IMG/VR virus record: IMGVR_UViG_3300030451_006131
Span: 1-20,796 of that record
Direction: 5' to 3' (one strand)
DNA: 20,796 bases
Source: a virus
Part shown: positions 300 to 20,369 of the stretch, piece after piece
Layout of the letters: every line of letters begins with the position of its first letter
Position numbering within the stretch: the first letter of the stretch is position 1
The notes under the pieces: generated by a model
What the model saw: the letters and a program-made list of their open reading frames with translations, nothing else
Database searches by the model: none
Told to the model about the DNA's origin: nothing
Translations under genes and position numbers: made by a program

Positions 300-1559
300 T
301 TATTTTATTCCAGCTAGTCTTTTCATACGTTCCTGTAAAGGATCGGATGAAGGCTTCTCTTCACGAGTTGCCCTTAAAACAGTAGAACGACGACCAATTG
401 CTTCGCTCAGTGATTGTGGGCTGCGCTTAGGTGCTGCCTCCACTGTGCTTTGAAGCGTATCATATATCGTACGTGCTTCTGCTACTGAACCGGCGCCAGA
501 AATCGCTTCGACAATCTTTTCTTTTTGTCGCTCATTCAAGGAGGTATTTCTCAATACTCGGTTCGTGTAAAGCAAACGAGCATTCGAAAGATTTACATCT
601 TGTAAATTTTCTTTCAGCTCCTGGGTTGCTTGCTTATACTTATTGTTCTGCTCGTTAAGTTGGTTATTTTCAAATACCAACTCTTCGTGAGCTTTCTTCA
701 AAGTTTCTAATTCTTCTTCCACATCTGTACTACGACGATGTGCTAATTCTTTTTCGATTTGGTGCTTCATATCGTCAGACGATCTGCCAGCCCAGCCAGC
801 AAGATCGGCGCCCATATCGACAGTAAGTTTTTCCATTATGGAGTCGACGAGAGAATCCATGTCGATGTTCTCAGCCTCATTTTCGTCTAATCCGCCGTCA
901 TCTGATGCTTCAAATTCTTTTTCTTCAGCATCAGCTTCATCAGCGGTTCCAATACTAGGAGTAGCGGAGGCAACAGTCATATCTTCGCTGATATCTGGAT
1001 CATCCTCATCTTTGTCGGCGCCATCAGGTACTCCATCGTGATCTTTGTCAAATTTTGCTCTGGCGCCGTCGAGAGGATCAGCATCTCCCTTCTCGCCCTT
1101 AGCTTCTTCAATGACTTCTTCCACTAATGCAGAAATAAAATCTTCAGAAATATCCATTTCTTCATCATCTTCGCTTAGTGCGGAAGCTAAATTATCAATA
1201 CTCTCCTGGAGAGCACCTAAATTAATGTCTATTTCTACTTCGGCTCCATCGGCAGGGAACGAGTTTAAGTTTTTTCCGTCTAATTCAGCAAAATCGTTTG
1301 TAGCTGCTAGTGGGATATCATCCTCCGTAACCTCTTCTGCCGCTTCGCCAGATATTGTGTCACCAGCGTCCAAGGCAACTTCGGAATCTAGTCCTAAATC
1401 AGCATCAAGTGCCAGTGGATCGTCTTGTTCCAGTAATTTGTCCAAGGTATTCCTCACTTCACTCGAATACTTCTCGATTACGATAGTTTCGGCATTTTTT
1501 AAGGCTGCATCGCGCAGAGCTTTGGCATCAACGATGGCTTCATTAAGCAAATTAGACAT
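300..1559 (-). CDS. 22: Prohead core scaffold protein, T4 gp22-type
   Basis: Internal scaffold around which the prohead shell is built, normally digested by the gp21 protease on maturation. The call rests on position directly before the capsid gene, a very acidic middle (about residues 45-240), a predicted coiled coil (about 265-325), and the C-terminal block ELKENLQDVNLSNARLLYTN followed by LNERQKEKIVEAI, which resembles gp22-type scaffolds of marine T4-like phages. At 419 residues it is longer than T4 gp22 (about 270); the extra length is the acidic region. That region contains DKDHDGVPDGADKDEDD (171-187), a calcium-loop-like motif not expected in a scaffold. The ATG at 1559 has AGGAG seven to eight bases upstream. 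The C-terminus is basic (RMKRLAGIK). Family assignment by motif and order, not by database search. Confidence 0.82.
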   Translation of the reverse strand: MSNLLNEAIVDAKALRDAALKNAETIVIEKYSSEVRNTLDKLLEQDDPLALDADLGLDSEVALDAGDTISGEAAEEVTEDDIPLAATNDFAELDGKNLNSFPADGAEVEIDINLGALQESIDNLASALSEDDEEMDISEDFISALVEEVIEEAKGEKGDADPLDGARAKFDKDHDGVPDGADKDEDDPDISEDMTVASATPSIGTADEADAEEKEFEASDDGGLDENEAENIDMDSLVDSIMEKLTVDMGADLAGWAGRSSDDMKHQIEKELAHRRSTDVEEELETLKKAHEELVFENNQLNEQNNKYKQATQELKENLQDVNLSNARLLYTNRVLRNTSLNERQKEKIVEAISGAGSVAEARTIYDTLQSTVEAAPKRSPQSLSEAIGRRSTVLRATREEKPSSDPLQERMKRLAGIK

Positions 1560-5348: not shown

Positions 5349-5379
5349 CCATGTAAATCTCCGTTTTGTTAAATAGGGG

Positions 5380-6507: not shown

Positions 6508-6523
6508 ATCTTACCCTTCTCAA

Positions 6524-6548
6524 TAAATAGATTTATATCTGTAAATAG
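6524..6548 (-). promoter_or_regulatory. Possible late-promoter-like sequence before the 5380-6507 gene
   Basis: On the minus strand this stretch reads CTATTTA, then a few bases, then TATAAAT followed at once by CTATTTA. TATAAATCTATTT resembles the T4 late-promoter consensus TATAAATACTATT with one base missing. It lies directly after a terminator and 17-35 bases before the ATG. This would let the downstream fibre genes be read separately. The match is suggestive only; the same CTATTTA element occurs in other gaps without TATAAAT. Confidence 0.35.
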
Positions 6549-6552
6549 TCAT

Positions 6553-6583
6553 AAAAAAGGATGCCCCCACAGGGAGGGCATCC
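6553..6583 (-). terminator. Rho-independent terminator
   Basis: Minus strand: GGATGCCC (6583-6576), a nine-base loop, GGGCATCC (6566-6559), then TTTTTT (6558-6553). The eight-base-pair GC-rich stem followed directly by a run of six T is a classic intrinsic terminator for the 6618-8021 gene. It is the only clear one in the window. Confidence 0.9.
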
Positions 6584-6617
6584 AAAAGATTCCAATATGA
6601 AATATCGGAAAGATTGA

Positions 6618-8021: not shown

Positions 8022-8144
8022 GTTTAAAAACCCTCCATATTATAGTTTTATATTTAGGCATGGATGGCATACACCTATCCATATTTAAGCACAAATGTAT
8101 ATCTATGCTTGCTTTTAAATAGTACGTACTCATCGGTACTAAAC
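8022..8144 (-). other. Longest intergenic gap, with hairpin and palindrome
   Basis: 123 bases with no gene on either strand. Contents: the palindrome AGTACGTACT (8121-8130) joined to a CTATTTA element (8122-8116); a hairpin (8060-8082) with stem ATGGAT/ATCCAT, extended by two G-C pairs across a bulged A; and an AT-rich stretch TAAATATAAAACTAT (minus strand) leading into GGAGGG. I read it as the control region of the highly expressed gene that follows. No exact T4 late promoter is present. Confidence 0.4.
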
Positions 8145-8690
8145 TTAGTAGATAAAGTATTTATTTGTCCCGTTACAATAAAGCTGAATAGATGCAAAGG
8201 GCGACTTCAAAACTACTGAATTTATGCCGTCGATTGTGTCGCTTCCGGGAGCCACAACGGTGATGTTATTATTTGCTGCAGCGCCTCCTTCATCCTTTAT
8301 GACAAACGTTTGTCCACTCGATGTCGAAGATGCTGCCGGCAAAGTTATTTGTAATACACCGTTGCTAGAATCGGCGCCTATAAAAAAATCTGATGTTGTA
8401 ATAGTATAGTTTTCATTAACAAATTTTCGTACATGCTCAATGCCGGCGTTTATTCTTAGAATGTTTCCATCAAAAGTTAAATTGCTCTCGCACGTAAGAG
8501 AGTTAGCATCCCCGCCCACATTGGTAACAAGTGCATTGTTGGTAGCGTTTGATAAACGTGGAATGTTAGTGATGTTGGAGCCGTCAGAGTAATCTAAATT
8601 ACCTGAAATAATAGAACCACTGGCTAAATTAAGCCGAGTGGTTAATTTGTCTGGAAGAAAAACAGTTCCTGATAAATTATTGTATGCCAT
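8145..8690 (-). CDS. Short fibre-like protein with shared C-terminal module
   Basis: 181 residues, essentially an N-terminal adaptor plus the shared module. MAYN start; SGSIISGNLDYSDGSNITNIP (25-45) is the same fibre motif as FYGDGSNLTNLP in the 4335-5348 product; ESNLTFDGNILRIN (68-81) is a second shared block. The C-terminal module runs from about 93 (NYTITTSDFFIG) through LQITLPAASS, FVIKDEGG, DTIDGINSVVL to LYCNGTNKYFIY. The leader has GGGAGG about six bases before ATG 8690. As the smallest member of the array it shows the minimal architecture. Likely a virion surface component; no enzymatic motif. Confidence 0.7.
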   Translation of the reverse strand: MAYNNLSGTVFLPDKLTTRLNLASGSIISGNLDYSDGSNITNIPRLSNATNNALVTNVGGDANSLTCESNLTFDGNILRINAGIEHVRKFVNENYTITTSDFFIGADSSNGVLQITLPAASSTSSGQTFVIKDEGGAAANNNITVVAPGSDTIDGINSVVLKSPFASIQLYCNGTNKYFIY

Positions 8691-8710
8691 TGGGCGCCTC
8701 CCTTACTTAA

Positions 8711-9385
8711 TTAGAAGACAAACCAATTGCTACCGTTTGAATATAAACTAATCGCCGGATTGGATCCTGTTAAAATATAAAAGCTACTATTGTCAATGTT
8801 ATATCCTGCTGAGCAAGTAAGTCGAATGTTTGTGCCACCTCTTCCAACAACTTCATCTTTTACAATCAAAACAGCACCAGCACCATATGTAGCTGCAGCC
8901 GGTATATTAATCTCGACATTGTTATTAAGTGTAACCCCTAAAATATAACTTGGTACACTAGCTGTTACCTTGGCTGAATTAACTGCCGTATACATCCCCT
9001 TAAACCCGCGGACACTGACTGTTTCGGTAGTATTATCAGCCCGAAGAATCATTGTTCCGTCAACCTTGGCTACCTCTAAACTTCCTGTTCTTATGTGTCG
9101 ATCATTATTGGTGTCACCAAAGAATGTTGAACCGGTAGCATCGATCTCTGTTATGTTGTCAATATGGTAATGACTGGCAGAAACAGCGCCATTGACAACA
9201 AGTGTGCCAGTTAAAATGAGAGTATTTGCTGGGAATGTGCCATACGCTGCTGTGTGGTACATAAAATTTGCGGAGCCGGAAGTGCTACCAGCGCCCGACA
9301 TAAATTGCACGGAGCCTGTCGGCCCGAAAGCAGCACCACTAGCAGAACCGGTGCATCGTACATATGCCCAACCAAATGATGGCAT
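8711..9385 (-). CDS. Fibre-like structural protein with shared C-terminal module
   Basis: 224 residues. The N-terminus MPSFGWAYVRCTG is followed by GPTGSVQFMSGAGSTSGSANF (21-41), a segment also found in degraded form in the 5380-6507 product (NQVQFKGASGFTSSESL). NTLILTGTLVVNGAVSASHY (54-73) is a typical phage-fibre beta repeat. EIDATGSTFFGD (80-91) follows. The C-terminal module (about 138-224) includes VEINIPAAATYGAGAVLIVKD and ends LYSNGSNWFVF. The gene starts four bases after the upstream stop, with AGGA in the end of that gene as its likely ribosome-binding site. Similar proteins occur in marine T4-like phages as far as I can recall; no precise function is known to me. Confidence 0.7.
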   Translation of the reverse strand: MPSFGWAYVRCTGSASGAAFGPTGSVQFMSGAGSTSGSANFMYHTAAYGTFPANTLILTGTLVVNGAVSASHYHIDNITEIDATGSTFFGDTNNDRHIRTGSLEVAKVDGTMILRADNTTETVSVRGFKGMYTAVNSAKVTASVPSYILGVTLNNNVEINIPAAATYGAGAVLIVKDEVVGRGGTNIRLTCSAGYNIDNSSFYILTGSNPAISLYSNGSNWFVF

Positions 9386-9389
9386 CTCT

Positions 9390-9833
9390 CTATCCTACAC
9401 CTATGGAGCCAGACCAGCTAGTGCCTGTTTCGGTAGTAACCTTGTCTTTGCTGATTGTTGTCAAACCGGCAACTATATCCACATTGCTGGAGCCTTGGAT
9501 CCAAAGTTCGGTTACTTTTAACTCTAAGCGACCTGAATTTGGATAAAGTCCTGGCGCACCGCCACGATTTGGAACTAGAAAAAAGTATGGCGCATCTGAT
9601 TCCGTAATACCTCTTTCTGAGAATCCGACTTTAACTTCTCGCCCGCCGGCGGTGTCGTTGTTTATTACCATAACCCACCTAGTCACCGACGGGAAGTCTA
9701 TTCTGTTTGGGCCGGCGAGACAATTAATAGATCCGCTAGCGAACGGAATTCCACTTACTTGATACGCCGGCGCGTGGTTAAGCCCAGCTGACCGAATATG
9801 CCAGGAGGGTGTAAAGTTTTTTTCATCTGCCAT
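9390..9833 (-). CDS. Paralogue 2 of a small beta-rich virion protein
   Basis: 147 residues, closely related to the product of 9877-10320. Shared blocks are KNFTPSW, PAYxVSGIPFAxG, INC, FPSVTRW, VKVxFSExG, a second block RLExKVxExWxQGSxNVD, AGLT and the ending SWxGSxGVG. The alternation of short hydrophobic strands suggests a beta sandwich. No catalytic motif, signal peptide or membrane helix. The upstream bases AATGGAG-ATTTAAA before the ATG are also shared with the paralogue, so the duplication included the ribosome-binding site. A head decoration or collar protein is plausible from location and size, but this is inference. The gap before it contains a CTATTTA element. Confidence 0.65.
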   Translation of the reverse strand: MADEKNFTPSWHIRSAGLNHAPAYQVSGIPFASGSINCLAGPNRIDFPSVTRWVMVINNDTAGGREVKVGFSERGITESDAPYFFLVPNRGGAPGLYPNSGRLELKVTELWIQGSSNVDIVAGLTTISKDKVTTETGTSWSGSIGVG

Positions 9834-9876: not shown

Positions 9877-10320
9877 TTATCCAACACCAGTACTGCCTTT
9901 CCAACTTGCGCCGGCTGATGTGGATACGCTTGCTGGTACAATTCTCGTCAAACCAGCTATGACGTCGACGTTCTCGGAACCTTGCAGCCATATTTCAGAA
10001 ACTTTTACTTCTAGTCGCTGGGTGATTGGAAATGTTCCACGATTAGGCGTTATTGTCACTCTTGGCACTATAAAAAAGTTTTTACTTGAAAGGCCAGCTT
10101 CAGAAAAGGCGACTTTAACATCTCGGTTGCCGAGTAGGGCATTACCGTGATTAATAATTATTATCCACCTAGTAACAGACGGAAACTCTATTTTGACAGC
10201 CGAGCCTTGGTTGCAATTAATCCCACCTCTTGCAAAGGGTATACCAGAAACCTCATATGCTGGAGTATAGTTTAGCCCTACTCTAGAATTCCACGAGGGT
10301 GTAAAGTTTTTGTCTGCCAT
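9877..10320 (-). CDS. Paralogue 1 of a small beta-rich virion protein
   Basis: 147 residues, the first of the tandem pair in reading direction. It differs from its copy mainly in two loops: GNALLGNRD (80-88) against DTAGGRE, and PRVTITPNRGTFP before RLEVKV. The sequence KNFTPSW at the start, FPSVTRW, and EIWLQGSENVDVIAGLT near the end are conserved between the copies and so probably define the fold. It is the first gene of the structural block after the bS21 homologue. Start at ATG 10320 with GGAG nine bases upstream. Probably a capsid- or tail-associated surface protein present as two isoforms. Confidence 0.65.
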   Translation of the reverse strand: MADKNFTPSWNSRVGLNYTPAYEVSGIPFARGGINCNQGSAVKIEFPSVTRWIIIINHGNALLGNRDVKVAFSEAGLSSKNFFIVPRVTITPNRGTFPITQRLEVKVSEIWLQGSENVDVIAGLTRIVPASVSTSAGASWKGSTGVG

Positions 10321-10346: not shown

Positions 10347-10595
10347 TTATCTTCTTTTTTTGTTACGGCGTTCTTGCGCTCTTTGTTTTTTTAATTCTTC
10401 ACGACGCCTGCGGCGCTCTGCTTTTGCTCTTTCTTCTCTTTTTTTAATTGATGGTTTTTTGTAATATTTTCTGTCTTTAATTTGTTCTACTATTCTTTCT
10501 TTTTTAGTTTTTTTAATAAATCTTCTAATCATTCTCTCATGATTGCCGCGGCATTCTTTTGAAGTAACCAATACGTTTGCTTTCTTTTTAGGCAT
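10347..10595 (-). CDS. rpsU: Ribosomal protein bS21 homologue
   Basis: 82 residues from MPKKK. The core matches bacterial bS21: MIRRFIKKTKKERIVEQIKDRKYYKKPSIKKR parallels [32 protein letters not shown] of E. coli S21, including the RRF, R-x-Y/F-Y-x-KPS/T and following basic segments (about residues 22-52). The C-terminus is a long Arg/Lys run, as in many bS21 proteins. bS21 sits near the mRNA exit site, and phage copies, known from pelagiphages and other phages, are thought to exchange into host ribosomes. An open GTG start 21 bases upstream would overlap the previous gene; ATG 10595, three bases past that gene's stop, is preferred and gives the usual S21 start. The gene lies between the protease neighbour and the structural block, so it would be made late with virion proteins. 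Confidence 0.82.
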   Translation of the reverse strand: MPKKKANVLVTSKECRGNHERMIRRFIKKTKKERIVEQIKDRKYYKKPSIKKREERAKAERRRRREELKKQRAQERRNKKRR

Positions 10596-10597
10596 CT

Positions 10598-11002
10598 TTA
10601 CTTCATTGCCTCCCACATGCGTGAGGCGCCACCCATTATAGAGCTAATATCAACACCAGGATCTCTAGGATCTCCCAAATCTACGGCGCCGGCTTTAGGT
10701 TCCGCGGATTCATATCCCGTCATTGGCTGCGTATCTTCAAACAAATTAACTCCGTTATAAGCATCGTTCCCAATAGCATCCATTAGCTTCCTTCGCTTTT
10801 CTGTCAAATCGGCAGGTTGTTGTTGTATTGGAGATCGTACAGGCTTTGGTGGCGGAGCGCTTTCAACAACAATATTGCTTTGATTCATCCCGCGGGCAAC
10901 CTCAGAAACAATATTAGATAAAACACCTTCCTCTATTAATACCTCGTTAATACACTCTTTGACAAGTGGTTTAATGATTTTCTTTAAATCACTTTTCTTC
11001 AT
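10598..11002 (-). CDS. Small head-cluster protein after the protease, unknown function
   Basis: 134 residues. The N-terminus SDLKKIIKPLVKECINEVL (4-22) is amphipathic and related to the MKI-type start of three other proteins here. IEEG at 23-26 fits the (L/I)-x-E cleavage pattern of gp21 proteases. The middle (50-70) is rich in Pro and Gln and probably disordered. The end VDISSIMGGASRMWEAMK is conserved-looking and hydrophobic. It overlaps the protease gene by 14 bases, so the two are probably translationally coupled. Candidates are a minor prohead core protein (T4 has gp67 and gp68 in this neighbourhood) or an internal protein. I recognise similar proteins in marine T4-like phages but know no function. 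Confidence 0.6.
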   Translation of the reverse strand: MKKSDLKKIIKPLVKECINEVLIEEGVLSNIVSEVARGMNQSNIVVESAPPPKPVRSPIQQQPADLTEKRRKLMDAIGNDAYNGVNLFEDTQPMTGYESAEPKAGAVDLGDPRDPGVDISSIMGGASRMWEAMK

Positions 11003-11600
11003 CTAAAACCTCATTTAATAATCTGTTAATTCTATCAGCGCGAGTAAACATCTTCGACTCGTTTAAATCTTTTGCTTCTCTCATCATAAAGGCGCCAGGA
11101 GTGGAGGGTTCTGAAACCATGTCAAAGCAGATCAACTGAAAGTCGTCTTCAACAATGGTTTTGCCCTTATCTTCACGCACAGAGCCCATGCCTCTAGAAG
11201 ATACTCCAACAGTAACTCCACCATTTACAAGCTCTTTGAGTATTTTTCCAGATGGTGTTTCAAGTACTTTAATTTTACCCATCACATTCTTGCCATCCAT
11301 CCATATCTCTGTAACCATATGGGATGCATTTTTAAGATTGATAACTGAATCGTCTGGGTGATCTAATTCCCCAAGAGCACGATTTTCTTTGACAAGTTTT
11401 TGATAGTTCTTAACCTCTCGCACCATTGTGCTGTGCTGATATACTCTGCCATTGCCGTTTTGTGTTTCTGTCATTTGCATGATACCCGAAAGAATCATAC
11501 CGCCGTCAGTAACATAACGCTTCTCTTCCTCAGTTAGAAGATCCTGACAAACGCCGCCATCACATAAAGCGTAATATTCTCTCAGTAGCTTTTTGGACAT
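10989..11600 (-). CDS. 21: Prohead core protease, T4 gp21-type
   Basis: 203-residue serine protease that digests the scaffold and trims head proteins during maturation. ALGELDHP (75-82) carries the catalytic His81; VGVSSRGMGSV (131-141) carries the Ser134/Ser135 nucleophile region; FDMVSEPS (159-166) completes the conserved set of the herpes-protease-like fold. ILSGIMQMTETQNGNGRVY (36-54) is the usual early strand block of this family in marine T4-like phages. The length fits T4 gp21 (212). It starts within TAATG of the previous gene (one-base overlap). The C-terminus RADRINRLLNEVLDEEK is basic then acidic and may be autoprocessed. Confidence 0.92.
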   Translation of the reverse strand: MSKKLLREYYALCDGGVCQDLLTEEEKRYVTDGGMILSGIMQMTETQNGNGRVYQHSTMVREVKNYQKLVKENRALGELDHPDDSVINLKNASHMVTEIWMDGKNVMGKIKVLETPSGKILKELVNGGVTVGVSSRGMGSVREDKGKTIVEDDFQLICFDMVSEPSTPGAFMMREAKDLNESKMFTRADRINRLLNEVLDEEK

Positions 11601-12031
11601 TATTCTGCCGCTCCAGCGCGACGATTAAGTGATTGAGTAGCGACGGCGCGTTGCAGCCCACTCAGAGCTTGCTTGATTCCAGCTGAATCTGTATCGAGTC
11701 CAAGTTTTTCAAGATCTTTAGCAAGCGACTTCAAGTGGGATTGCAAAATAGATAATGTTCTCTTCGCTAGTGCCTTGTCTGCTGTGCCGGCTTTAGTTGC
11801 CGCGGCTCTGTCTCTCATTGTTTGAGCCATTTCGTCTTCACCAGCAGCGGATGCAATGGCTCCGAGTCCCTTTTGTATTGCGCCTCTACCGGCGCCTTTT
11901 AATTTCGTTCCAACGCCAGATGCTCGGGCTTTAAGTCGATCGAGGATACCCTCGTCGATTTCGCCAGATTCAATCATCGCCTGAATTTCTTCATCGATAA
12001 TCTGTTTAATTTCTGATTCTGTTATTTTCAT
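11600..12031 (-). CDS. Small Ala/Gly-rich MKI-type protein before the protease
   Basis: 143 residues. Begins MKITESEIKQIIDEEI, the N-terminal motif shared with the 17349 and 19992 genes. A gp21-type site, I25-D26-E27 before G28, lies soon after the motif. The rest is Ala, Gly and Lys rich with helical stretches (about 88-130: KALAKRTLSILQSHLKSLAK) and a net positive charge in the middle. Good AGGGAG ribosome-binding site nine bases before ATG 12031. It touches the protease gene, so the two are probably co-translated. Size, basic character and context would suit an internal head or prohead core protein; this is inference. Confidence 0.55.
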   Translation of the reverse strand: MKITESEIKQIIDEEIQAMIESGEIDEGILDRLKARASGVGTKLKGAGRGAIQKGLGAIASAAGEDEMAQTMRDRAAATKAGTADKALAKRTLSILQSHLKSLAKDLEKLGLDTDSAGIKQALSGLQRAVATQSLNRRAGAAE

Positions 12032-12058
12032 TGTAGCTAACTCCCTTTACAGCAATGT

Positions 12059-12388
12059 CTAACTGGTTGGAGCATCCACTTTTGTGTCCATATGTTTGTG
12101 TTCATGTTTTATTCCTTCATCTCCAAAAACCATGTTTAAGATGTATGAGGTTCCTGATGATAACCATCCTAGTAAAAAGAAGTTAGCTACAGAAACGTCA
12201 AAATTAAATAGTTCCGTGAACGGAGAAAGTAGCATTAAAAACCAACCCACGTGAAATCCAACACACATTGGACAGCTAAACAGCTCTCCAAGCTTACCTT
12301 CGGTGGGTCTAATGCTATTAAATATTTTTCCGTACACTAAAACTTGCGTGAGCCCGTAAGCGGCAAGTATAAATGTTAGTAGTTCCAT
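12059..12388 (-). CDS. Small membrane protein with CPMC motif
   Basis: 109 residues from ATG 12388, which has AGAGGA four bases upstream; the frame is open through a TTG at 12403 but the ATG is better placed. Three hydrophobic segments are visible (about 3-19, 43-60, 68-87). CPMCVGFHVGW (39-49) precedes the second helix, and a His-rich tail HEHKHMD (95-101) follows the third; together they could bind a metal. The pattern 'GLTQVLVYGKIF ... LGELFSCPMC.GF' resembles DUF1360-like membrane proteins and homologues I recall from marine phages. A membrane protein inside the prohead gene run is notable because T4 proheads assemble on the inner membrane; a link is speculative. Confidence 0.6.
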   Translation of the reverse strand: MELLTFILAAYGLTQVLVYGKIFNSIRPTEGKLGELFSCPMCVGFHVGWFLMLLSPFTELFNFDVSVANFFLLGWLSSGTSYILNMVFGDEGIKHEHKHMDTKVDAPTS

Positions 12389-12395
12389 GTTTCCT

Positions 12396-12938
12396 CTATT
12401 CAAATGTGTACATGTAGTCCAAGGCGTAAGGATCTCTAATGTATCGATTACTAAGCGAGCCTTGGTTTGAAGACTGCGGTACCTCTCCCAATTCTGTCGA
12501 ATCTTCTTTGTCCGGGTGTATCAGCTCATCGTCTTCCATTGATACAATGGCTTCCATATTTTCAAAATATGGACGCTCTTCTTCTATAAACTGAGAAATG
12601 TTAATAAGAGCTAACTTCGGTGCACTTACATTTGGATCTGCAGATTCTTGTATCGCGCCTTCAATGGCACCGTAAAAAGCTCCGGCTTGCACTGACTCTG
12701 GGGTTAAGATTCCCTTTTTAATTAAATGTGACATCAACCGATTTTGTGCTCCATATACTAAATCTGACATGTTTTCTTTTGGGAACGCTACGATTTTTTT
12801 TGTGCCAGGAGATAATACAATATCTATATCTCCGTGATCAAATATCATTATATCCCCTGCAAGACTTTTTCGAGCATCGATCTCTAGTCTAACTTTTTTC
12901 TCATTAGCCTTTTCGCCTATTTTAATTAATACTGCCAT
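12396..12938 (-). CDS. Conserved head-cluster protein, unknown function
   Basis: 180 residues. A beta-rich N-terminal half (KKVRLEIDARKSLAGDIMIFDHGDIDIVL, seen in parts at 14-43) is followed by a helical segment (AQNRLMSHLIKKGILTPESVQAGAFYGAIEGAI) and an acidic tail ending YALDYMYTFE. No membrane segment or catalytic motif that I recognise. It overlaps the preceding gene by 17 bases, so the two are probably coupled. Conserved neighbours in marine T4-like phages suggest a head-assembly role between portal and protease. I do not assign a function. Confidence 0.6.
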   Translation of the reverse strand: MAVLIKIGEKANEKKVRLEIDARKSLAGDIMIFDHGDIDIVLSPGTKKIVAFPKENMSDLVYGAQNRLMSHLIKKGILTPESVQAGAFYGAIEGAIQESADPNVSAPKLALINISQFIEEERPYFENMEAIVSMEDDELIHPDKEDSTELGEVPQSSNQGSLSNRYIRDPYALDYMYTFE

Positions 12939-13758
12939 CTTGTTCGGTTTCCTTACAAAGTGATTGTATTCTTAAAACAGTAAGAATAATATTTTCGTTT
13001 ATCTCAGTATCGCGAAAACTATCTAATTTTGCGATGACTTGGTTTGTCTTATCTGTCATTTCTGAATCTTGTACTATATCTTCTTGAGTTTTTGCATTTT
13101 CAATATTTTCTCTTAAGCGTGATATTTCTTCATTTAAGTAAATTTTAAATTCAAGGGAATTATCTACAAAAGATTTGATATAAAGATTTAAAAGAGTTTT
13201 TTGCTCTTGTAAAAGTGTTCCTTCATATTTCTCATTAAACTTTTTTACAAAAGATTCAACAACAAGATCATCAATATGACTTTCTACATCGGCGGTTTCT
13301 AATTCAGAAATCAGCATATCTTCTACAACTGCTTTTTCCAAAAGAACCTTTTCTTTGGGCGCAGAAGAAAAAGAAAACATCTGGTAAATGTTAGCTAAGG
13401 ACTTATAATTTGGAACAAAATTATCAAAAACACTTGATTCAATTTCTTTATTAATAGAATGAATAAGAGAAGTCTGCTCTTTAAATAAAACTTCTGGATT
13501 TAAATAACTCTTTTGAAGGCGCGCCTCTTTTATGATATTTCTACAGTCTTCTTTATCGGCAGATTGATTTTTATATAACGACTGGTAGCATTCCAAATCT
13601 TTCCTCAAAATTGTTCCTGGCTTGAAGTGCTCTTTAATAATTGAAATAACTTTGTCGCGACGTTCACTATCTTTTTGGAGTATTGCCGATGTTCCTTCTC
13701 GAATCAATGCTTCATATACAAACGCTGTGTTTCGCTTCTTATTATATCTAGTCTTCAT
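12922..13758 (-). CDS. Conserved protein following the portal, unknown function
   Basis: 278 residues, largely helical and charged. The start MKTRYNKKRNTAFVYEALIREG is a recognisable block in proteins that follow the portal gene in marine T4-like phages; FDNFVPNYKSLANIYQMFSF (115-134) is a second such block. Long helices follow (about 190-260), including a likely coiled coil RLRENIENAKTQED. It overlaps the end of the portal gene by 11 bases. The position matches that of genes 67/68 in T4, which encode prohead core components, but I see no sequence relation to them. Codon and base composition are more AT-rich than in the neighbouring portal gene. Confidence 0.65.
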   Translation of the reverse strand: MKTRYNKKRNTAFVYEALIREGTSAILQKDSERRDKVISIIKEHFKPGTILRKDLECYQSLYKNQSADKEDCRNIIKEARLQKSYLNPEVLFKEQTSLIHSINKEIESSVFDNFVPNYKSLANIYQMFSFSSAPKEKVLLEKAVVEDMLISELETADVESHIDDLVVESFVKKFNEKYEGTLLQEQKTLLNLYIKSFVDNSLEFKIYLNEEISRLRENIENAKTQEDIVQDSEMTDKTNQVIAKLDSFRDTEINENIILTVLRIQSLCKETEQDGSIN

Positions 13759-15760
13759 TTTCTTGCTCCGTAATTAATTTGTCTTTAGCTTCTAAAAGAT
13801 TGATTAAGCCATGAAGAGAATCATTCACTTCAAAAAGAAGTTGCTCTTCGTTAGCATCCTTCAAAGTATAAATAGGTTCTCCGGAGGGATAATCACTTTC
13901 TGTGATTCCTTTTGCCAATGGTAGCATACTCGGGATACTCGCAATCTCAGCACCGGGATTTTTGGCGCGAGCGGATCTTCCACGTTTTTCCATATTAGTT
14001 AACCCATGCATATGTCGAGTTCTGGCGCCGGCATCGCGACGATCTACCTTCTTTGGAAAATACAATTTTTTGCCTTTACTATTTTCTCCACCATGAAGTC
14101 TTGGAGAATTTCTAGATCCAGGGGGAACCGCTAAAAGTGGTGAGTCATCGTCATCGGCGCCAGCATCTGCATCGCCTGCGGGCATTTCTTCTCCGCCGGA
14201 TGCCAAGTCGCCGGCTAAATCGCCACCAAGATCTGCATCCAAGTCTCCACCTAGATCATCCCCTAGTTCGCCGCCAAGATCACCACCCAATCCACCACCA
14301 ACCTCTCCAGCGGCGGCAGCTTCTGCAACAGCTTGTAAGGCAGCATCATGTTTGCGATCGTAATACATTTCTCTTTGATTGCGTAAAAACTCTTCGTGCG
14401 ATAGTCCAAAAATATTATCAGCAACCCATCGACGTGAGAAATATCCCTCTGTCGCTGATGCTGCAATATCGAACTTCGCTTTCCAATGCTCAATCTCCTG
14501 AAGCTCGGCGATTTTTGATGGATTGTTGAGAACTGTCTGAAAACTGATTAAATCGTCGCCGCGGAATCCGAGTGTATAAAGATGAATGATGCCAATTTTT
14601 TCAAGCTCAGCAGTAATAACTCTTTGTAATCTTTGTATAGTTCTCGCAAATCGAACGTCTTTTTGAGCAAGTGTTGTTTTGTCTTCTGCAGCACCTTCAC
14701 CCATTGCAAGATATGCTTGGGGAATTTTTAGCGCGGAAAAGAGTTTATCGCGAAGATATTTAACATCATCAATCGCTGTTGTATTTTGCCCGGCAGCAAG
14801 ATTCTGAATATCTGTTACGGAACCGGGGCGAACAGGTATAAAGTAATCCTCTTCAATTGACATTGGATTATATCTTAAGTCCACCCTGCCGCTAGTTGGA
14901 TCTACTACTGAGTGTCTTTTTAGTTGGGTTACAATTTTCTCCATGTATTGCTCCACATCTTGCGGAGGAATAGATCCCACATCAATCTTGAACACTCGAC
15001 GTTCAGATGATCTAATAACCCTATAAGCCATCATAGCGTCTTCAAGCAATATAAGTTGTCTAAATATTCTACGAGCAGGATCTAAAATAGAAGTTCCGTA
15101 CGGCGAGTGTTTATCATTGCCTAAAACTCGAAAATGCGCGATCTGCCAGTTTTCAAATGTCATTCCAGCAGAGTTCCACTGATATTGGACATAGTTTGGG
15201 TTTGTTGCGTCCTTTCCTTCTAATCTTTCAATCTCTGATATCGGCAAGGAAATAACTGATTGGACTCCAAATTTATCGTCAATGTCCAGATATAAGAAGA
15301 AGTCGCCATATTTACACATGGTACGCGCCCAGCCAAACAAGTTATAATCAATGTTCAAAATTTTAGAATAAAGGTTTTCCAAAACAGCTTTGATTTCTTC
15401 ATTTGGGCAGCGTACGCTTAACATAGGACGCAAATCAGAATAGGTTGTCATCTCGTCGGCATATATATCCAGGGAAGATGCAATCTCGGGGGTATACTCC
15501 ATTTGATCAAAATCGACATAACGCTCAACTCTGCGTTGGTTTTGCATTGCATTTGCTGCAATGGTGTCAAGCGGGTTATAGAGTGACTTCTTAAACTGTT
15601 GCCCAGATGCTGACTTAAATCTGCTAGAAAATTTGTCTAGGTGTTGGCGACGAATTTTTCTTCCTGTCTGAGATCTGTAATTTACAATAGGTCCAGAAAA
15701 AAGGCGCGTTAGAGCCTTAAAAAGTTGTGATTGAGTATTTCTTGAATTTTTATCTGCCAT
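13748..15760 (-). CDS. 20: Portal protein, T4 gp20-type
   Basis: 670 residues (T4 gp20 has 524). The dodecameric ring at the special vertex through which DNA enters. Recognisable blocks: NPLDTIAANAMQNQRR (62-77), YTPEIASSLDIYADE (89-103), the wing/stem region LLEDAMMAYRVIRSSERRVFKIDVG (238-262 in parts), KIPQAYLAMGEG (345-356), KDVRFARTIQRLQRVI (367-382) and HWKAKFDIAAS near the end of the core. After residue 480 comes an Ala/Gly region with repeated GGDL units (488-523), then a basic linker and a helical C-terminus (635-665). The extra 150 residues are this C-terminal extension. TerL ends eight bases upstream, and the next gene overlaps the stop. Confidence 0.93.
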   Translation of the reverse strand: MADKNSRNTQSQLFKALTRLFSGPIVNYRSQTGRKIRRQHLDKFSSRFKSASGQQFKKSLYNPLDTIAANAMQNQRRVERYVDFDQMEYTPEIASSLDIYADEMTTYSDLRPMLSVRCPNEEIKAVLENLYSKILNIDYNLFGWARTMCKYGDFFLYLDIDDKFGVQSVISLPISEIERLEGKDATNPNYVQYQWNSAGMTFENWQIAHFRVLGNDKHSPYGTSILDPARRIFRQLILLEDAMMAYRVIRSSERRVFKIDVGSIPPQDVEQYMEKIVTQLKRHSVVDPTSGRVDLRYNPMSIEEDYFIPVRPGSVTDIQNLAAGQNTTAIDDVKYLRDKLFSALKIPQAYLAMGEGAAEDKTTLAQKDVRFARTIQRLQRVITAELEKIGIIHLYTLGFRGDDLISFQTVLNNPSKIAELQEIEHWKAKFDIAASATEGYFSRRWVADNIFGLSHEEFLRNQREMYYDRKHDAALQAVAEAAAAGEVGGGLGGDLGGELGDDLGGDLDADLGGDLAGDLASGGEEMPAGDADAGADDDDSPLLAVPPGSRNSPRLHGGENSKGKKLYFPKKVDRRDAGARTRHMHGLTNMEKRGRSARAKNPGAEIASIPSMLPLAKGITESDYPSGEPIYTLKDANEEQLLFEVNDSLHGLINLLEAKDKLITEQENED

Positions 15761-15768
15761 TTATTTTC

Positions 15769-17352
15769 TCACTTTATAATCCACTTATACTGATTATACA
15801 TCTTTTTTGCTGAATCCATTTTATCAAACATATTGTTCTTTTTGTAGCCCTCTTGCCCAGCTATTTGTGTATTCATCGTTGTTCTTGAGGTATATATTGA
15901 ATTTGCATAAGCTTTTTGATAATTTAATTCTCTTGCGTTTGCCTGTAATGCTGTATCTCTAACCCAGCATGCGATCGCAAGTGCCATGATTAAGTCATCA
16001 TGATACCCCTTCATTGCTTGTGGCTTACCATTCCTCCAAATAAAAGTCTTCATTTCGTTAACTGTGCGAGATGAGTACACCTTAATTAGTTTGTTTCTTA
16101 TGAATTCTTCTAGTTTTGCAATTATCAAGGGGCGTGTCTTCATTGATGTGGTAAATCCTGGAACTGCAGTCGATCTGTATTCGGCTTGATGTTGTTCAAT
16201 GTATTCGTGAGTTGATTTAATTGAATAATATATATTAGGATATCCGTGCTCTACAAGCTTATCTAGAATAGAATAGCCAATATTGTTATTTTCTACAACC
16301 AACATGCATCCCCCATATTCTCTACCAACTTGATTTAATATATTAGCGTACATATCTAGCGTTGGCTTGCCTTGATACTCACCTACAACCTCTAAAGTTT
16401 CAAGCTTAATAATGTGAAACGTTGAATAATCTGCACCATCACCACGAGCAACATCAGCTACCATGAGATAATTGCACGAAGGATCGAACTCTTCCCATAT
16501 CCAAAAATTTCTATCAAACCCTGTTCTGTGTTTAGGCTCGCAAACATTCGACAATAACCACTCCATACATTCAGGATCAATGACAGTTTCACCAGACGTG
16601 TTGAAGTTACATTCTAGCTCTTGTGCAATTTGTCGCTTGGACATATTCTTAGTTTCTTTCTTGTACCATTCCTCATCTCTATCGGGATGCACGTCCCATG
16701 GAAGAGTAGTTAAATTAAAGTTATTGGCACCAGAGTCAGCGTCTGTGCACGTTTTATGAAACCAGTTTCCTACGCCATTTGGAGTAGACAAAGCTATACA
16801 CCGCCCACCAGTTGACAGTGTGGGATACAACCCAGTCCACAACTCTTCAAGTCCCTCGATGTGTGCTGCCTCATCGAGCACCAAAAGAGACAACGCCTCT
16901 GAACGTCCGGCATCTCCAGAAGTAGAAGCTGCCTTGATAGAGGAGCCGTTTGATAATTCAAAAGAAGTTCTATTGTCAACAGAAATTGTCGCTATACTAA
17001 GCCACTCTGGAATATTTCGCATTATGTTTTTAACTTTTTTAACGAGGTTTCCAGCAGTTGCAAATTTAGTTGCCATAACTAAAATTGATTTATCTCTATG
17101 AAACAACATTAGCCAAACAATGTAACCTGCTGTAATTGTTGATATTCCTAATTGGCGCGCTTTTAAAATTACATTAAAACGATAATCATTAAAATCAGTC
17201 AAGAGAGTATCTTGGAAATCATACGTATCAAAAAGAATTAACCCGTGCATGGGGTGAGAAATTCTTGCATATGTTTTTAAAAAGTAAGATGGATCTTTAC
17301 CACATTTAATTATTTCTTTTACTTTTTGTTTTTTGTCTAACTGGAAGCTCAT
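15769..17352 (-). CDS. terL: Terminase large subunit (packaging ATPase and nuclease)
   Basis: 527 residues, T4 gp17-like. ATPase: KARQLGIST (64-72) sits where T4 has the SRQLGKTT Walker A; LLVLDEAAH (156-164) is Walker B with Asp160 and the catalytic Glu161; ALSTPNG (187-193) is the coupling motif. Nuclease: ADVARGDGADYS (299-310) with Asp300, LVVENNN (351-357) with Glu354, and GYHDDLIMALAI (449-460) with Asp452/453 supply the metal-binding acids of the RNase H-like domain. It drives ATP-dependent DNA translocation into the prohead and cuts the concatemer. The start overlaps the previous gene by four bases (ATGA). No gene for a sheath or tube follows, unlike T4. Confidence 0.96.
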   Translation of the reverse strand: MSFQLDKKQKVKEIIKCGKDPSYFLKTYARISHPMHGLILFDTYDFQDTLLTDFNDYRFNVILKARQLGISTITAGYIVWLMLFHRDKSILVMATKFATAGNLVKKVKNIMRNIPEWLSIATISVDNRTSFELSNGSSIKAASTSGDAGRSEALSLLVLDEAAHIEGLEELWTGLYPTLSTGGRCIALSTPNGVGNWFHKTCTDADSGANNFNLTTLPWDVHPDRDEEWYKKETKNMSKRQIAQELECNFNTSGETVIDPECMEWLLSNVCEPKHRTGFDRNFWIWEEFDPSCNYLMVADVARGDGADYSTFHIIKLETLEVVGEYQGKPTLDMYANILNQVGREYGGCMLVVENNNIGYSILDKLVEHGYPNIYYSIKSTHEYIEQHQAEYRSTAVPGFTTSMKTRPLIIAKLEEFIRNKLIKVYSSRTVNEMKTFIWRNGKPQAMKGYHDDLIMALAIACWVRDTALQANARELNYQKAYANSIYTSRTTMNTQIAGQEGYKKNNMFDKMDSAKKMYNQYKWIIK

Positions 17353-18074
17353 ACATTTTTCAGTGCCGCTATTACTTCTTCTCGATTGGCAAGATCTCCT
17401 TCAAGATCAACAACCAAGATCTCTTCTATTCCCTCTTTTTCTGCCATTTCTATTAATTCTGCATCTGACATCTTATCAAAACCGTGGGGATCTAGGGCAT
17501 CATACATCTCGCCCTCGTCTTCCATATCGCGGTACTCGCCCTCATCGACTTCTTCCTCTTCGTCTCGGGCGCCAGGAATTCCAGCCATCGATCGAAGCCC
17601 ATATGAGCCCATTTCCACAATCTTCTGGAAAACTGCTTCTCTTAAAGGTCCGAGGCTAATTTGTGGACGCCCTTCAGCACCGGGCGAATATAGCGTTTCA
17701 GGTTCTTCTTCTGCGTCACCCATTTCAACACCAGGGATTCTAGCAAACACGGCTTGAAATAAATCAGCCACATCATCTGGTTGCATTCCTTTCACCAAAT
17801 TAGATATTTGATCTTCTAAGTTTTCAGAACTGGGGGCTGGATCATCACCGGTGTCGAGAGCCATAGTATCCGATGCAGCTTGATGTGGTTTTTCCATCGG
17901 GGCAGTGTCTCCTCCGCGTGAGCCACGATTCTTAAGAGCTTGGCGTCGTTCATATTCCTCATCACCAAGAATTTGTCTCAAAAGATCTTGAGCAGCCTGA
18001 CTTTCTTCCAAGCCCTCTTCTTTGATATATTCTTCAACGACTATGCGCCTTAATTCTGCTTGTGAAATTTTCAT
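17349..18074 (-). CDS. Acidic MKI-type protein upstream of TerL
   Basis: 241 residues, strongly acidic. Starts MKISQAELRRIVVEEYIKEEG, the shared N-terminal motif. The middle (50-90, 120-140, 170-195) is low-complexity and probably disordered. The C-terminus KMSDAELIEMAEKEGIEEI ... LANREEVIAALKN (201-240) has the helix-loop-helix pattern of small SAP/Rho-N-like domains, which often bind nucleic acid. It is translationally coupled to TerL through ATGA. In T4 the small terminase subunit precedes TerL, so this is one candidate for that role, but I see no DNA-binding helix-turn-helix or known TerS motif. A packaged internal protein is another option. Confidence 0.6.
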   Translation of the reverse strand: MKISQAELRRIVVEEYIKEEGLEESQAAQDLLRQILGDEEYERRQALKNRGSRGGDTAPMEKPHQAASDTMALDTGDDPAPSSENLEDQISNLVKGMQPDDVADLFQAVFARIPGVEMGDAEEEPETLYSPGAEGRPQISLGPLREAVFQKIVEMGSYGLRSMAGIPGARDEEEEVDEGEYRDMEDEGEMYDALDPHGFDKMSDAELIEMAEKEGIEEILVVDLEGDLANREEVIAALKNV

Positions 18075-18076
18075 TG

Positions 18077-18625
18077 CTATTTCTTCCTGGTGTCATTGCT
18101 TGGGCGTTTTCCACCGGATCCATCCCAGCCGCCTTGTTCCATAAAGCTTTTCCAATTTGATTCTGGTTGTGGTTTTGAGCCTCTATTGTCATCATTCATG
18201 GCTTCGTCCAAGCCGCCGACACGATAATGTTTTTTGGCTTGAACCCAGCTTCGGACACGTGAAGAATTTTGCACCATCACATCACACTCACCTTCTTGTG
18301 TTAGGGTGACTGACTCTCCTGTAACTTTTCTGTATTCTTTCTTTAGCCAGCCGGCTATGTCTGTGATTCTCTGATCCATCTCTTCTTCGAATCCTCCAGC
18401 ATAAACCTCTTTTAATTGAACCTCAGAGTGATATGACAAGCACATCATATTGCCTTCAAACTTCACGTTAAATCCATCCATCACTCTTTCATCAATAAGT
18501 GCATTACCTTCCTCTCTTCGGAGAGCGCCGACGGATACCGGAGACATATCTTCCCCCAAAGCACCATCATAAGCATTTGCTGCGGCTTGTGATAAGCCTT
18601 GAATTATTTCATAAACTGTTGCCAT
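18077..18625 (-). CDS. Conserved phage protein, unknown function
   Basis: 182 residues. The opening MATVYEIIQGLSQAAANAYDG is a block I recognise from proteins of marine phages near their terminase genes. A mixed alpha/beta core follows: VKFEGNMMCLSYHSEVQLKEV (54-74), a helix EEEMDQRITDIAGWLKKEYRKV (80-101), then SVTLTQEGECDVMVQNSSRVRSWVQAKKHYRV (105-136 in parts), which ends in a likely strand and helix. The last 45 residues are polar, Gly- and Asn-rich and probably disordered. No enzymatic motif. The start has AAGGAA upstream. It lies two bases before the acidic protein and may be part of the packaging or neck machinery. Confidence 0.65.
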   Translation of the reverse strand: MATVYEIIQGLSQAAANAYDGALGEDMSPVSVGALRREEGNALIDERVMDGFNVKFEGNMMCLSYHSEVQLKEVYAGGFEEEMDQRITDIAGWLKKEYRKVTGESVTLTQEGECDVMVQNSSRVRSWVQAKKHYRVGGLDEAMNDDNRGSKPQPESNWKSFMEQGGWDGSGGKRPSNDTRKK

Positions 18626-18639
18626 TTTTGTTTCCTTTT

Positions 18640-19017
18640 TTAGTTAGGTCTCCAACCTTCTGTCCATCTTTCCTCTCTGCCTTCCACATATTGAATATAA
18701 CATTTGCTGCAACATTCATATTTGATTAGGCAGACATCATCCATAGATTTCTTTGGAAAACTTCCGCAGACTGGACAACACTTTAAAGATTCTCTATTAA
18801 GTAGTTTTTTCGTAACCTTTATACCATTTATATCAATTTTCTCTTCTTGCGATTCATTTCTTTTAATTTTACTATAAAACTCGGACATCTGTTGCAAGTA
18901 TTCTTTTTCTTTTTCTTCATTCCATTTTGAACGCGGGTTTTCAACCGCCTCTTTTCCATATTTTTCTGTGATTGCTTTTTCGATCGCTGCAATCTGGTTT
19001 GAATCTTTCTTACTCAT
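18640..19017 (-). CDS. Zinc-ribbon-like small protein
   Basis: 125 residues from ATG 19017, which overlaps the upstream stop in ATGAGTAA; an upstream TTG is open but unlikely. The N-terminal half is helical and charged, with EKEYLQQMSEFYSKIKR (37-53). The C-terminal half holds two Cys pairs, CPVC (81-84) and CSKC (103-106), with further Cys at 80, 96 and 102, consistent with a small zinc ribbon. It ends YVEGREERWTEGWRPN, a tail I recognise from similar proteins in marine T4-like phages. Function unknown; a structural zinc site in a virion or DNA-handling protein is possible. Confidence 0.65.
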   Translation of the reverse strand: MSKKDSNQIAAIEKAITEKYGKEAVENPRSKWNEEKEKEYLQQMSEFYSKIKRNESQEEKIDINGIKVTKKLLNRESLKCCPVCGSFPKKSMDDVCLIKYECCSKCYIQYVEGREERWTEGWRPN

Positions 19018-19429
19018 TAAATGCTCTATATGCTCCATATGATGCCGCAGTACCAACTAGGATCCCACCAGCAAAATATAACCATTTGTGCCGGGGTGAA
19101 GTTTTTTTTAGTGCTTTAGCCAATAGATCGATTTCTTTATCTTTCTGCATTATAAACAAATCGTACTCATCTGTTAAGGCTTTGTGTTCTATTCTCATAT
19201 TCTCTAATTTAAATTCATATTCTTCTTTTTGAATCTTTAATTGATATTCTGTTCTTATATCGCAAGAATACTTTAAAATATCATAGTCTGCCATAATTTG
19301 TGCCATGGCGTATTCATCGAACAATACACCTGCAAACGGTGCGGGTGCTTTATATTCTAAAACTGTAAACTTCGCCGGCTCAGTTGCTCCGACAGCCATT
19401 GTCAACATTAGCAAAAGATTAAGGAACAT
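19010..19429 (-). CDS. Exported coiled-coil protein with C-terminal membrane helix (lysis candidate)
   Basis: 139 residues from ATG 19429, overlapping the upstream stop by 11 bases; a TTG at 19441 is an alternative start. The first 15 residues (LNLLLMLTMAVGA before TEP) look like a cleavable signal peptide. Residues about 60-108 form a charged coiled coil (KIQKEEYEFKLENMRIEHKAL). KWLYFAGGILVGTAASYGAY (115-134) is a membrane helix near the C-terminus. There is no lipobox. A periplasmic coiled coil with a second membrane anchor, next to a membrane-anchored coiled-coil protein, suggests a spanin-like or lysis-accessory role. This is inferred from topology and context. Confidence 0.55.
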   Translation of the reverse strand: MFLNLLLMLTMAVGATEPAKFTVLEYKAPAPFAGVLFDEYAMAQIMADYDILKYSCDIRTEYQLKIQKEEYEFKLENMRIEHKALTDEYDLFIMQKDKEIDLLAKALKKTSPRHKWLYFAGGILVGTAASYGAYRAFNE

Positions 19430-19802
19430 ACTGAATACCAAACTTCTCTTCTATATCTTTAATTAGTTGTTCTCGATCACTATTAAATTTGTTTCTATAT
19501 TTACCTTTCTTATCTTCTCTTAATTCGTCAATCATCTCTAGCGCATCTTCGTAGTCTTCTTCAATTGCAGCTATGGATTCCAGATGACTTTCCATCAATT
19601 TTTGTTTTTCACGAATCTCTTTCTTGTGTATTTCTTTTAAGCCTTCGATCTGCGCTTGGTGAGACTCGTTTTGTGTCTCATATGCTTTTTGCATGAGATT
19701 GTAATCTCTTTGATTTTTAAGAGCTAAAACAACCAAAAGCAATATGATTAATATTGCCTTCCAATTTTTGAGAATAAAATCTAAAATTTTTGCTTTAAGC
19801 AT
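19419..19802 (-). CDS. Membrane-anchored coiled-coil protein, possible i-spanin (Rz-like)
   Basis: 127 residues from ATG 19802, which has AGAGGG five bases upstream and overlaps the previous stop by eight bases; a TTG at 19832 is open but weaker. One N-terminal membrane helix (about 14-29, WKAILIILLLVVLALK) is followed by a long charged coiled coil (about 35-100) and a short folded end FGIQYVP. That is the layout of inner-membrane spanins (Rz type). A holin-like gene lies just upstream and an exported protein just downstream. No endolysin is visible in the window, so the cassette would be incomplete here. Coiled-coil proteins are easily misassigned, so confidence is moderate. Confidence 0.55.
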   Translation of the reverse strand: MLKAKILDFILKNWKAILIILLLVVLALKNQRDYNLMQKAYETQNESHQAQIEGLKEIHKKEIREKQKLMESHLESIAAIEEDYEDALEMIDELREDKKGKYRNKFNSDREQLIKDIEEKFGIQYVP

Positions 19803-19995
19803 TGTACCCTCTGAGTCTGGAGATTCCGTCAATTACAGTCTGTCCGCCGATGTAAATTGCTGAAATAATCACCCAATCCTCACTTGTTACGTGTCCCGCT
19901 AAAGTTAATCCTGTGGCAGTTAGCCATACCATTAGCTTGCGGGATGTAAGTTTCGCAAGCCATGTATCCATAAATGCTTGTGCTTTTGCTGTCAT
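19795..19995 (-). CDS. Small two-helix membrane protein, holin-like
   Basis: 66 residues. A short amphipathic start with KLTSRK (15-20) is followed by two hydrophobic helices (about 21-36 and 40-57) separated by a polar turn HVTSED, then a basic tail SRLRGYNA. The size and the arrangement 'SRKL...LAG..TSEDW...A.YIGGQ..ID' resemble small phage holin-like proteins. It starts in a four-base overlap (ATGA) with the upstream gene and overlaps the coiled-coil gene downstream. Holins share little sequence, so the call rests on topology and neighbours. Confidence 0.5.
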   Translation of the reverse strand: MTAKAQAFMDTWLAKLTSRKLMVWLTATGLTLAGHVTSEDWVIISAIYIGGQTVIDGISRLRGYNA

Positions 19996-20369
19996 TTTTT
20001 CCTCACTTTAATTATGCGTACTGAATCTGGTTTTGTTGCGCAGCCTTCTTCCTCTACTTTAGATTTACACATCTCTTCCGCTTCCGCAGCAGATAAGCCC
20101 GGGGCTCTTTCAGATGCAGATTTGTCTTTTTGAGCGCATGCCCAACGTCGTTGCTTTTCTGAAGATACTTCTTCGATATCATCTTCTGATTTAGCCTCTT
20201 CTGCTATTTTTGACATAATAGCAGACCAGATAACCCCTTGTGCTTCAAGAGGTATTTTATCGATTTCTTTAGAAATAATATTATAGATAGCATCCACTTC
20301 GCCCTGTAACGAGGCAAGTTCTATTTCTTCTATAATGATTTTTTTAAGCCTAGATTTCGATATTTTCAT
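19992..20369 (-). CDS. MKI-type small protein, unknown function
   Basis: 125 residues starting MKISKSRLKKIIIEEI, the clearest copy of the shared N-terminal motif. A helical segment (20-60) follows. The C-terminal half has EKQRRWACAQKDKSASER (71-88) and GLSAAEAEEMCKSK (91-104), a pattern (basic-aromatic-Cys stretch, then a short 'LS.AEAEEMC' helix) that I recall from other phage small proteins without known function. Cysteines at 78, 101 and 110. It overlaps the holin-like gene by four bases. No enzyme motif. Confidence 0.55.
   Translation of the reverse strand: MKISKSRLKKIIIEEIELASLQGEVDAIYNIISKEIDKIPLEAQGVIWSAIMSKIAEEAKSEDDIEEVSSEKQRRWACAQKDKSASERAPGLSAAEAEEMCKSKVEEEGCATKPDSVRIIKVRKK

Follow-up and report, generated by a model that had tools for sequence, protein, structure and literature searches.

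The internal head proteins of bacteriophage T4 carry an N-terminal amphipathic capsid-targeting sequence (CTS, MKxYQEFI) that is removed by the protease gp21 after (L/I)-x-E. Packaging of IPIII needs only its first ten residues, residues 4 and 7 acting in targeting and residues 8 and 10 in processing (PMC9026906); such T4 propeptides comprise 10–20 residues (PMC5694885). As a rule, a phage has to be cultured and its virions subjected to proteomics before its packaged and injected proteins are known. Could a comparable address be read directly from the genomes of uncultured ones?

We analyzed a window of 20,796 nt (positions 1 to 20,796 of IMG/VR record IMGVR_UViG_3300030451_006131), a 20.8-kb piece of a T4-like phage in which terminase, portal, S77 protease and a gp22-like scaffold are present. 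Four of its ORFs, all on the minus strand, start with a related peptide. We consider it highly probable that this peptide, here called the tag, serves to target internal head proteins (probably injected ones) to the capsid and is then removed by gp21. The features are:

20322..20369, minus strand: tag 1, residues 1-16 of ORF 19992-20369, MKISKSRLKKIIIEEI
19992..20369, minus strand: tagged protein of 125 aa, body without annotation (Pfam/PHROG)
18027..18074, minus strand: tag 2, residues 1-16 of ORF 17349-18074, MKISQAELRRIVVEEY
17349..18074, minus strand: tagged acidic protein of 241 aa, directly upstream of terminase
15769..17352, minus strand: T4-type large terminase, gp17 (Pfam/PHROG)
13748..15760, minus strand: T4-type portal, gp20 (Pfam/PHROG)
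11984..12031, minus strand: tag 3, residues 1-16 of ORF 11600-12031, MKITESEIKQIIDEEI
11600..12031, minus strand: tagged protein of 143 aa between portal and protease (T4 gp67/gp68 position)
10989..11600, minus strand: gp21-type prohead protease, Peptidase S77 (PF03420, E=5e-31; phrog_207, E=6.5e-57)
10928..11002, minus strand: looser tag 4, residues 1-25 of ORF 10598-11002, MKKSDLKKIIKPLVKECINEVLIEE
10598..11002, minus strand: protein of 134 aa with the looser tag, directly behind the protease gene
300..1559, minus strand: gp22-like scaffold, recognized by similarity to the Flavobacterium phage immuto gene that immediately precedes the one for the major capsid protein

The preliminary description had assigned the strict form of the tag to three ORFs (19992-20369, 17349-18074 and 11600-12031) and the looser form to 10598-11002. 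Coordinates and sequences proved to be as claimed, and a looser scan from every ATG found no other carrier in the window. The same holds for the statement that the four bodies are mutually unrelated (lowest E value 0.04, from a 4x4 comparison run without composition correction); none of the four ORFs has a Pfam or PHROG match at E<=0.001. The adjacent gp21-type protease is real, with PF03420 scoring 108 bits against a Pfam gathering cut-off of 27, and both quoted cleavage sites, I25-D26-E27/G in 11600-12031 and I23-E24-E25/G in 10598-11002, are present (the slash marks the cut). Behind tag 3, residues E27 and G28 of this candidate cut are invariant in 8 of 8 homologues, the body contains zero further (L/I)-x-E, and a structure model of low confidence places helices at residues 5-22 and 28-43 with a break between them. 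The protein of 10598-11002, whose N-terminus is MKKSDLKKIIKPLVKE, offers a candidate cut at I18-N-E20/V in addition to that at residue 25. A candidate overlooked earlier, L22-E23-E24/S25, lies just behind tag 2 in 17349-18074, and (L/I)-x-E is kept at this place in its homologues (LDE/S, LVE/V, LVE/A, ITE/Y and LDE/A). ORF 19992-20369 has no (L/I)-x-E from the tag to residue 55; its nearest relative locus encodes the same gene 8.8 kb upstream of S77. The gp22-like scaffold is 36% identical to the immuto gene over 107 residues and contains 16 (L/I)-x-E sites, as expected of a core protein that is cut to pieces. Such scaffolds (300-1559 of the window on the minus strand, immuto 204 and WWT39314 of Microcystis phage Mel-JY01) have in common a C-terminal KLAGI or RLAGI followed by (I/V)K or K.

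Other minus-strand genes of the window include a phage-encoded ribosomal protein bS21 (10347-10616; PF01165, E=1.9e-7), found in the same neighborhood behind gp21 as RpsU of Mel-JY01. Two adjacent paralogous ORFs, 9390-9833 and 9877-10320, start with MADEKNFTPSW or MADKNFTPSW and possibly encode decoration or neck proteins. Several fibre-like ORFs within 4335-9385 have a common C-terminal module with an end pattern like L..NG..W/YFI.

How widely is the tag distributed? A degenerate DNA pattern for it retrieved at least 120 stretches from IMG/VR and its reversed control 7 contigs from the whole collection, which argues that the motif is not due to chance; exact matches reach 10 per record for the tag, the control giving none. 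The tag is found on dozens of otherwise unrelated proteins from many uncultured, mostly marine, T4-like phages. Among the fetched ORFs, 171 occurrences are N-terminal and 39 internal, a ratio that is descriptive only, since the loci were picked by the motif. The consensus of 209 proteins is MKITKsqLKqIIKEEl..vLxE, that is, M-K-I-T-K-s-q-L-K-q-I-I-K-E-E-l followed by L/V19, L20 and E21/22. In an alignment of 108 tagged proteins only columns 1-15 align, and 202 bodies fall into 163 families; a conserved body in place of a conserved tag was therefore rejected, the N-terminal peptide being what proteins with unrelated bodies have in common. Synonymous codons within the tag vary freely (all six for Leu8, all three for Ile11 and Ile12), so the constraint acts on the protein. 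Tags are more alike within genomes (0.61) than between them (0.44; 0 of 300 permutations), as expected if they are read by one genome-specific partner, and the bodies show no such difference. Single matches in bacterial genomes look like chance, and the multi-tag contigs in two MAGs belong to genomes that have S77. No cultured phage checked contains the tag, and the nearest relatives in culture that we found are Flavobacterium phage immuto and Microcystis phage Mel-JY01; tblastn against cultured phages returned nothing usable, either with the bare 22-aa peptide, which is too short, or with an artificial 52-aa extension. The library searched held no paper that names the peptide or gives it a role, and we found no earlier description of tag use on this scale.

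Directly behind the tag, a cleavage signal is enriched. The motif (L/I)-x-E occurs at residues 19-26 in 101 of 224 nonredundant tagged proteins, compared with 49 expected by column shuffling (z=10.9). Gaps of 0, 2, 3 and 4 residues between (L/I) and E yield z values of -1.4, 3.0, -1.4 and -0.4; only the one-residue spacing is strongly enriched, and the excess is thus not one of helix periodicity. Enrichment is strong at residues 21/22, and only 45% of tagged proteins have the canonical site at residues 19-26, the 123 that do not including 19992-20369. The residue after the site is often Ala (18 observed, 6.3 expected) or Gln (11 and 4.8) and never Pro or Thr (4.9 and 4.4 expected). L-x-E/(S,A,Q) is conserved in major capsid proteins of tag-bearing phages, in the stretch where T4 gp23 is processed, so the protease of this clade plausibly has the same preference; LTE/G and LLE/G also occur nearer their N-terminus. 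Within the tagged bodies, (L/I)-x-E/(A,G,S,Q) is found at 0.68 of the shuffled expectation, versus 1.33 in untagged ORFs. The I-x-E14 inside the tag is less likely to be the main cut, as this would leave Glu15, unlike the Ala, Ser or Gln at the capsid sites; it may be a second cut.

Is the tag tied to the protease that would remove it? Co-occurrence with gp21, a check proposed in the preliminary description, was found in 32 of 50 large motif records, among them every one of the 12 that reach 140 kb. Of the 18 records lacking S77, 17 also lack a T4 portal and a convincing terminase match and are therefore probably fragments without a head module. S77 is present in essentially every motif contig that has a T4-type portal; one possible exception of 125 kb (G014) has tag, portal and terminase, gives no S77 match and may be incomplete. 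The motif is not frequent in phages without a gp21-type protease: 0 of 101 viral records (2.65 Mb) from three S77-lacking groups (HTVC019P-like, HMO-2011-like and PSS2-terminase-like) have the tag, whereas it occurs in 35 of the 80 loci for which S77 was the sole selection criterion (Fisher p=2e-15). Absence of S77 was tested directly in the PSS2-terminase-like group, in seven HTVC019P-like records and in the type phages HTVC019P and HMO-2011. An uncultured 484-kb phage has S77 and four tags, the tagged ORFs lying directly upstream of S77; S77 without the tag is seen in HTVC008M and in the cyanophages checked. Clade and S77 are not fully separable here, and common descent within a single branch of these phages may account for the distribution of the tag, so the association supports a functional link and does not prove it. 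In two records the S77 gene itself apparently contains an intein (L579:128-2047 in record G005 and L580:1580-3304 in LR756508), in both at an identical position immediately after the Asp-His-Pro of the catalytic region (DHP-C...TGN-SSVV); TPNH and LAGLIDADG-like motifs were recognized by eye.

Gene order points the same way. In the 80 S77-selected loci, 69 of 69 tags share the strand of S77; all lie upstream of it, at 0-2 kb or 5.6-10 kb, and the 10 kb downstream contain none. The near tags occupy the T4 gp67/gp68 slot in the gap between portal and protease, and the far ones lie beyond terminase. The window has the same layout, except for the looser tag of 10598-11002 directly behind S77. These loci are a cleaner test of proximity than rotation of exact-pattern tags, by which 9 of 30 records have a tag beside S77 with 2.1 expected, a result that is suggestive only. 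Tags often stand in tandem gene arrays, several of them far from S77.

Cargo release by gp21 is the most likely mechanism; packaging, cleavage, injection and the docking partner are what we infer from these sequence patterns. The amphipathic helix of the tag would attach new proteins to the prohead core, whose gp22-like scaffold is the presumed docking partner. The activated S77 protease would then cut behind (L/I)-x-E, with residue 21 or 22 as the commonest position, so that the mature protein is set free in the head and the tag leaves with the core debris. Proteins so released would be internal to the head and would probably enter the host together with the DNA. The preliminary suggestion of a head-targeting tag cut by a gp21-type protease thus gains support from the S77 association, the prohead-core gene slot and the coupled (L/I)-x-E, and further from the capsid-like next residue, the depletion of sites in the bodies and the genome-specific dialects.

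Might the tagged proteins instead be parts of the prohead core or scaffold like T4 gp67 and gp68, which assemble via a common helix and are then degraded rather than kept as stable cargo? The gp67/gp68 slot from portal to protease is exactly where several tagged genes are found, and many tagged bodies are small and acidic. Yet protease sites are depleted in the bodies but number 16 in the gp22-like scaffold, most bodies are lineage-specific and mutually unrelated, and a few have enzyme domains (SET, TseH-like hydrolase, GNAT), so that we regard this alternative as improbable. Lower still we rate a binding helix for a partner outside the head, such as a membrane, ribosome, host protein or early complex, with the S77 link due to shared ancestry. 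The amphipathic helix pattern, the tag arrays remote from S77 and the cultured cyanophages that have S77 without the tag would suit it, but it leaves the coupled (L/I)-x-E, the Ala/Gln preference and the site depletion in the bodies unexplained. That the tag is fixed to the start codon, often in tandem arrays, could also reflect a DNA or RNA element there (a promoter, a translation enhancer or a recombination site for body swapping); the freedom of the synonymous positions at Leu8, Ile11 and Ile12 makes this very unlikely indeed.

If the tag is a CTS, metagenomes give direct access to the set of internal head proteins in a large group of uncultured phages, and hundreds of unrelated, mostly unannotated bodies become candidate effectors of the first minutes of infection, possibly including anti-restriction proteins of the IPI kind. 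The few recognizable bodies, a SET domain (L045:449-814), a TseH-like hydrolase (L024:10031-10849) and a GNAT domain (L039:4679-5431), fit effector delivery, albeit thinly; PDB and NCBIfam searches of the tagged bodies added little. The tag would also offer a second targeting sequence for loading phage capsids. Carrying the targeting reading further, the tag could be a modular address code, with a dialect in each genome that the core of the phage itself reads, and could load into the head, for injection, unrelated and quickly exchanged effectors (up to a dozen or more) in a large group of uncultured marine and jumbo T4-like phages; a grammar close to the N-terminus, Phi-x-x-Phi-(L/I)-x-E, would then predict injected proteins on the basis of sequence only. 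For this broader proposal we see the chances as evenly balanced. In T4 the grammar recovers IPII, IPIII and gp24, which are established substrates of gp21, together with gp2 and some probable chance ORFs. It also picks a 54-aa T4 ORF (NC_000866, around 18966, minus strand) with the CTS-like start MKTFKEFIKEDM (MKTFKEFIKED). Enrichment was observed in immuto and four records (G026, G040, G033 and G042) and not in P-HM1, HTVC008M, HTVC019P or HMO-2011, so the grammar is not universal to S77 phages. The virion-MS annotation of PA5oct was dropped as a test, this phage being without the tag and outside the clade; our search turned up no virion proteomics of any phage that bears the exact tag.

How does the tag compare with described head-protein signals? 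The cultured phage immuto, which has S77, carries several N-terminal motifs of tag-like layout, of the NFDLKKFLxENKLTxN and MKKSQLRQIIKEAL types, on proteins encoded upstream of terminase; unlike the tag, they come in several sequence variants. Looser tag 4 of the window resembles the MKKSQLRQIIKEAL type. We found no functional study of these N-termini. Several proteins share the first type as an additional N-terminal tag family, NFDLKKFLxENKLTxNSxxLxE (MW353175; L342, L441-L448); one kinase-like and one HAD-like protein of immuto also begin with tag-like peptides, and its protein 200 has EHFIAEAR near the N-terminus (compare QEFIAEAR of the T4 CTS). The inner head proteins of phiKZ and SPN3US likewise have N-terminal propeptides, cut by a gp21-like protease after x-x-E (PMC5694885), but these mostly exceed 100 residues and are cut at (S/A)-x-E, whereas the propeptide predicted here would measure about 21-22 residues and be cut at (L/I)-x-E. 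The T4 CTS of IPI, IPII, IPIII and Alt, like the tag, is a short N-terminal peptide on unrelated proteins, with an (L/I)-x-E cleavage signal close behind (for the tag a candidate signal, in 45% of the proteins) and a gp21-type protease encoded in the genome. The sequences differ (MKITKsqLKqIIKEEL versus MKTYQEFIAE), the tag is about twice as long, and it marks up to a dozen or so proteins per genome, often arrayed, as against a few in T4. The spacing is identical, Y4-F7-I8-x-E10 of T4 corresponding to L8-I11-I12-x-E14 of the tag. Spacing alone agrees, and we do not claim common descent; the comparison supports the view that the tag works like the T4 CTS.
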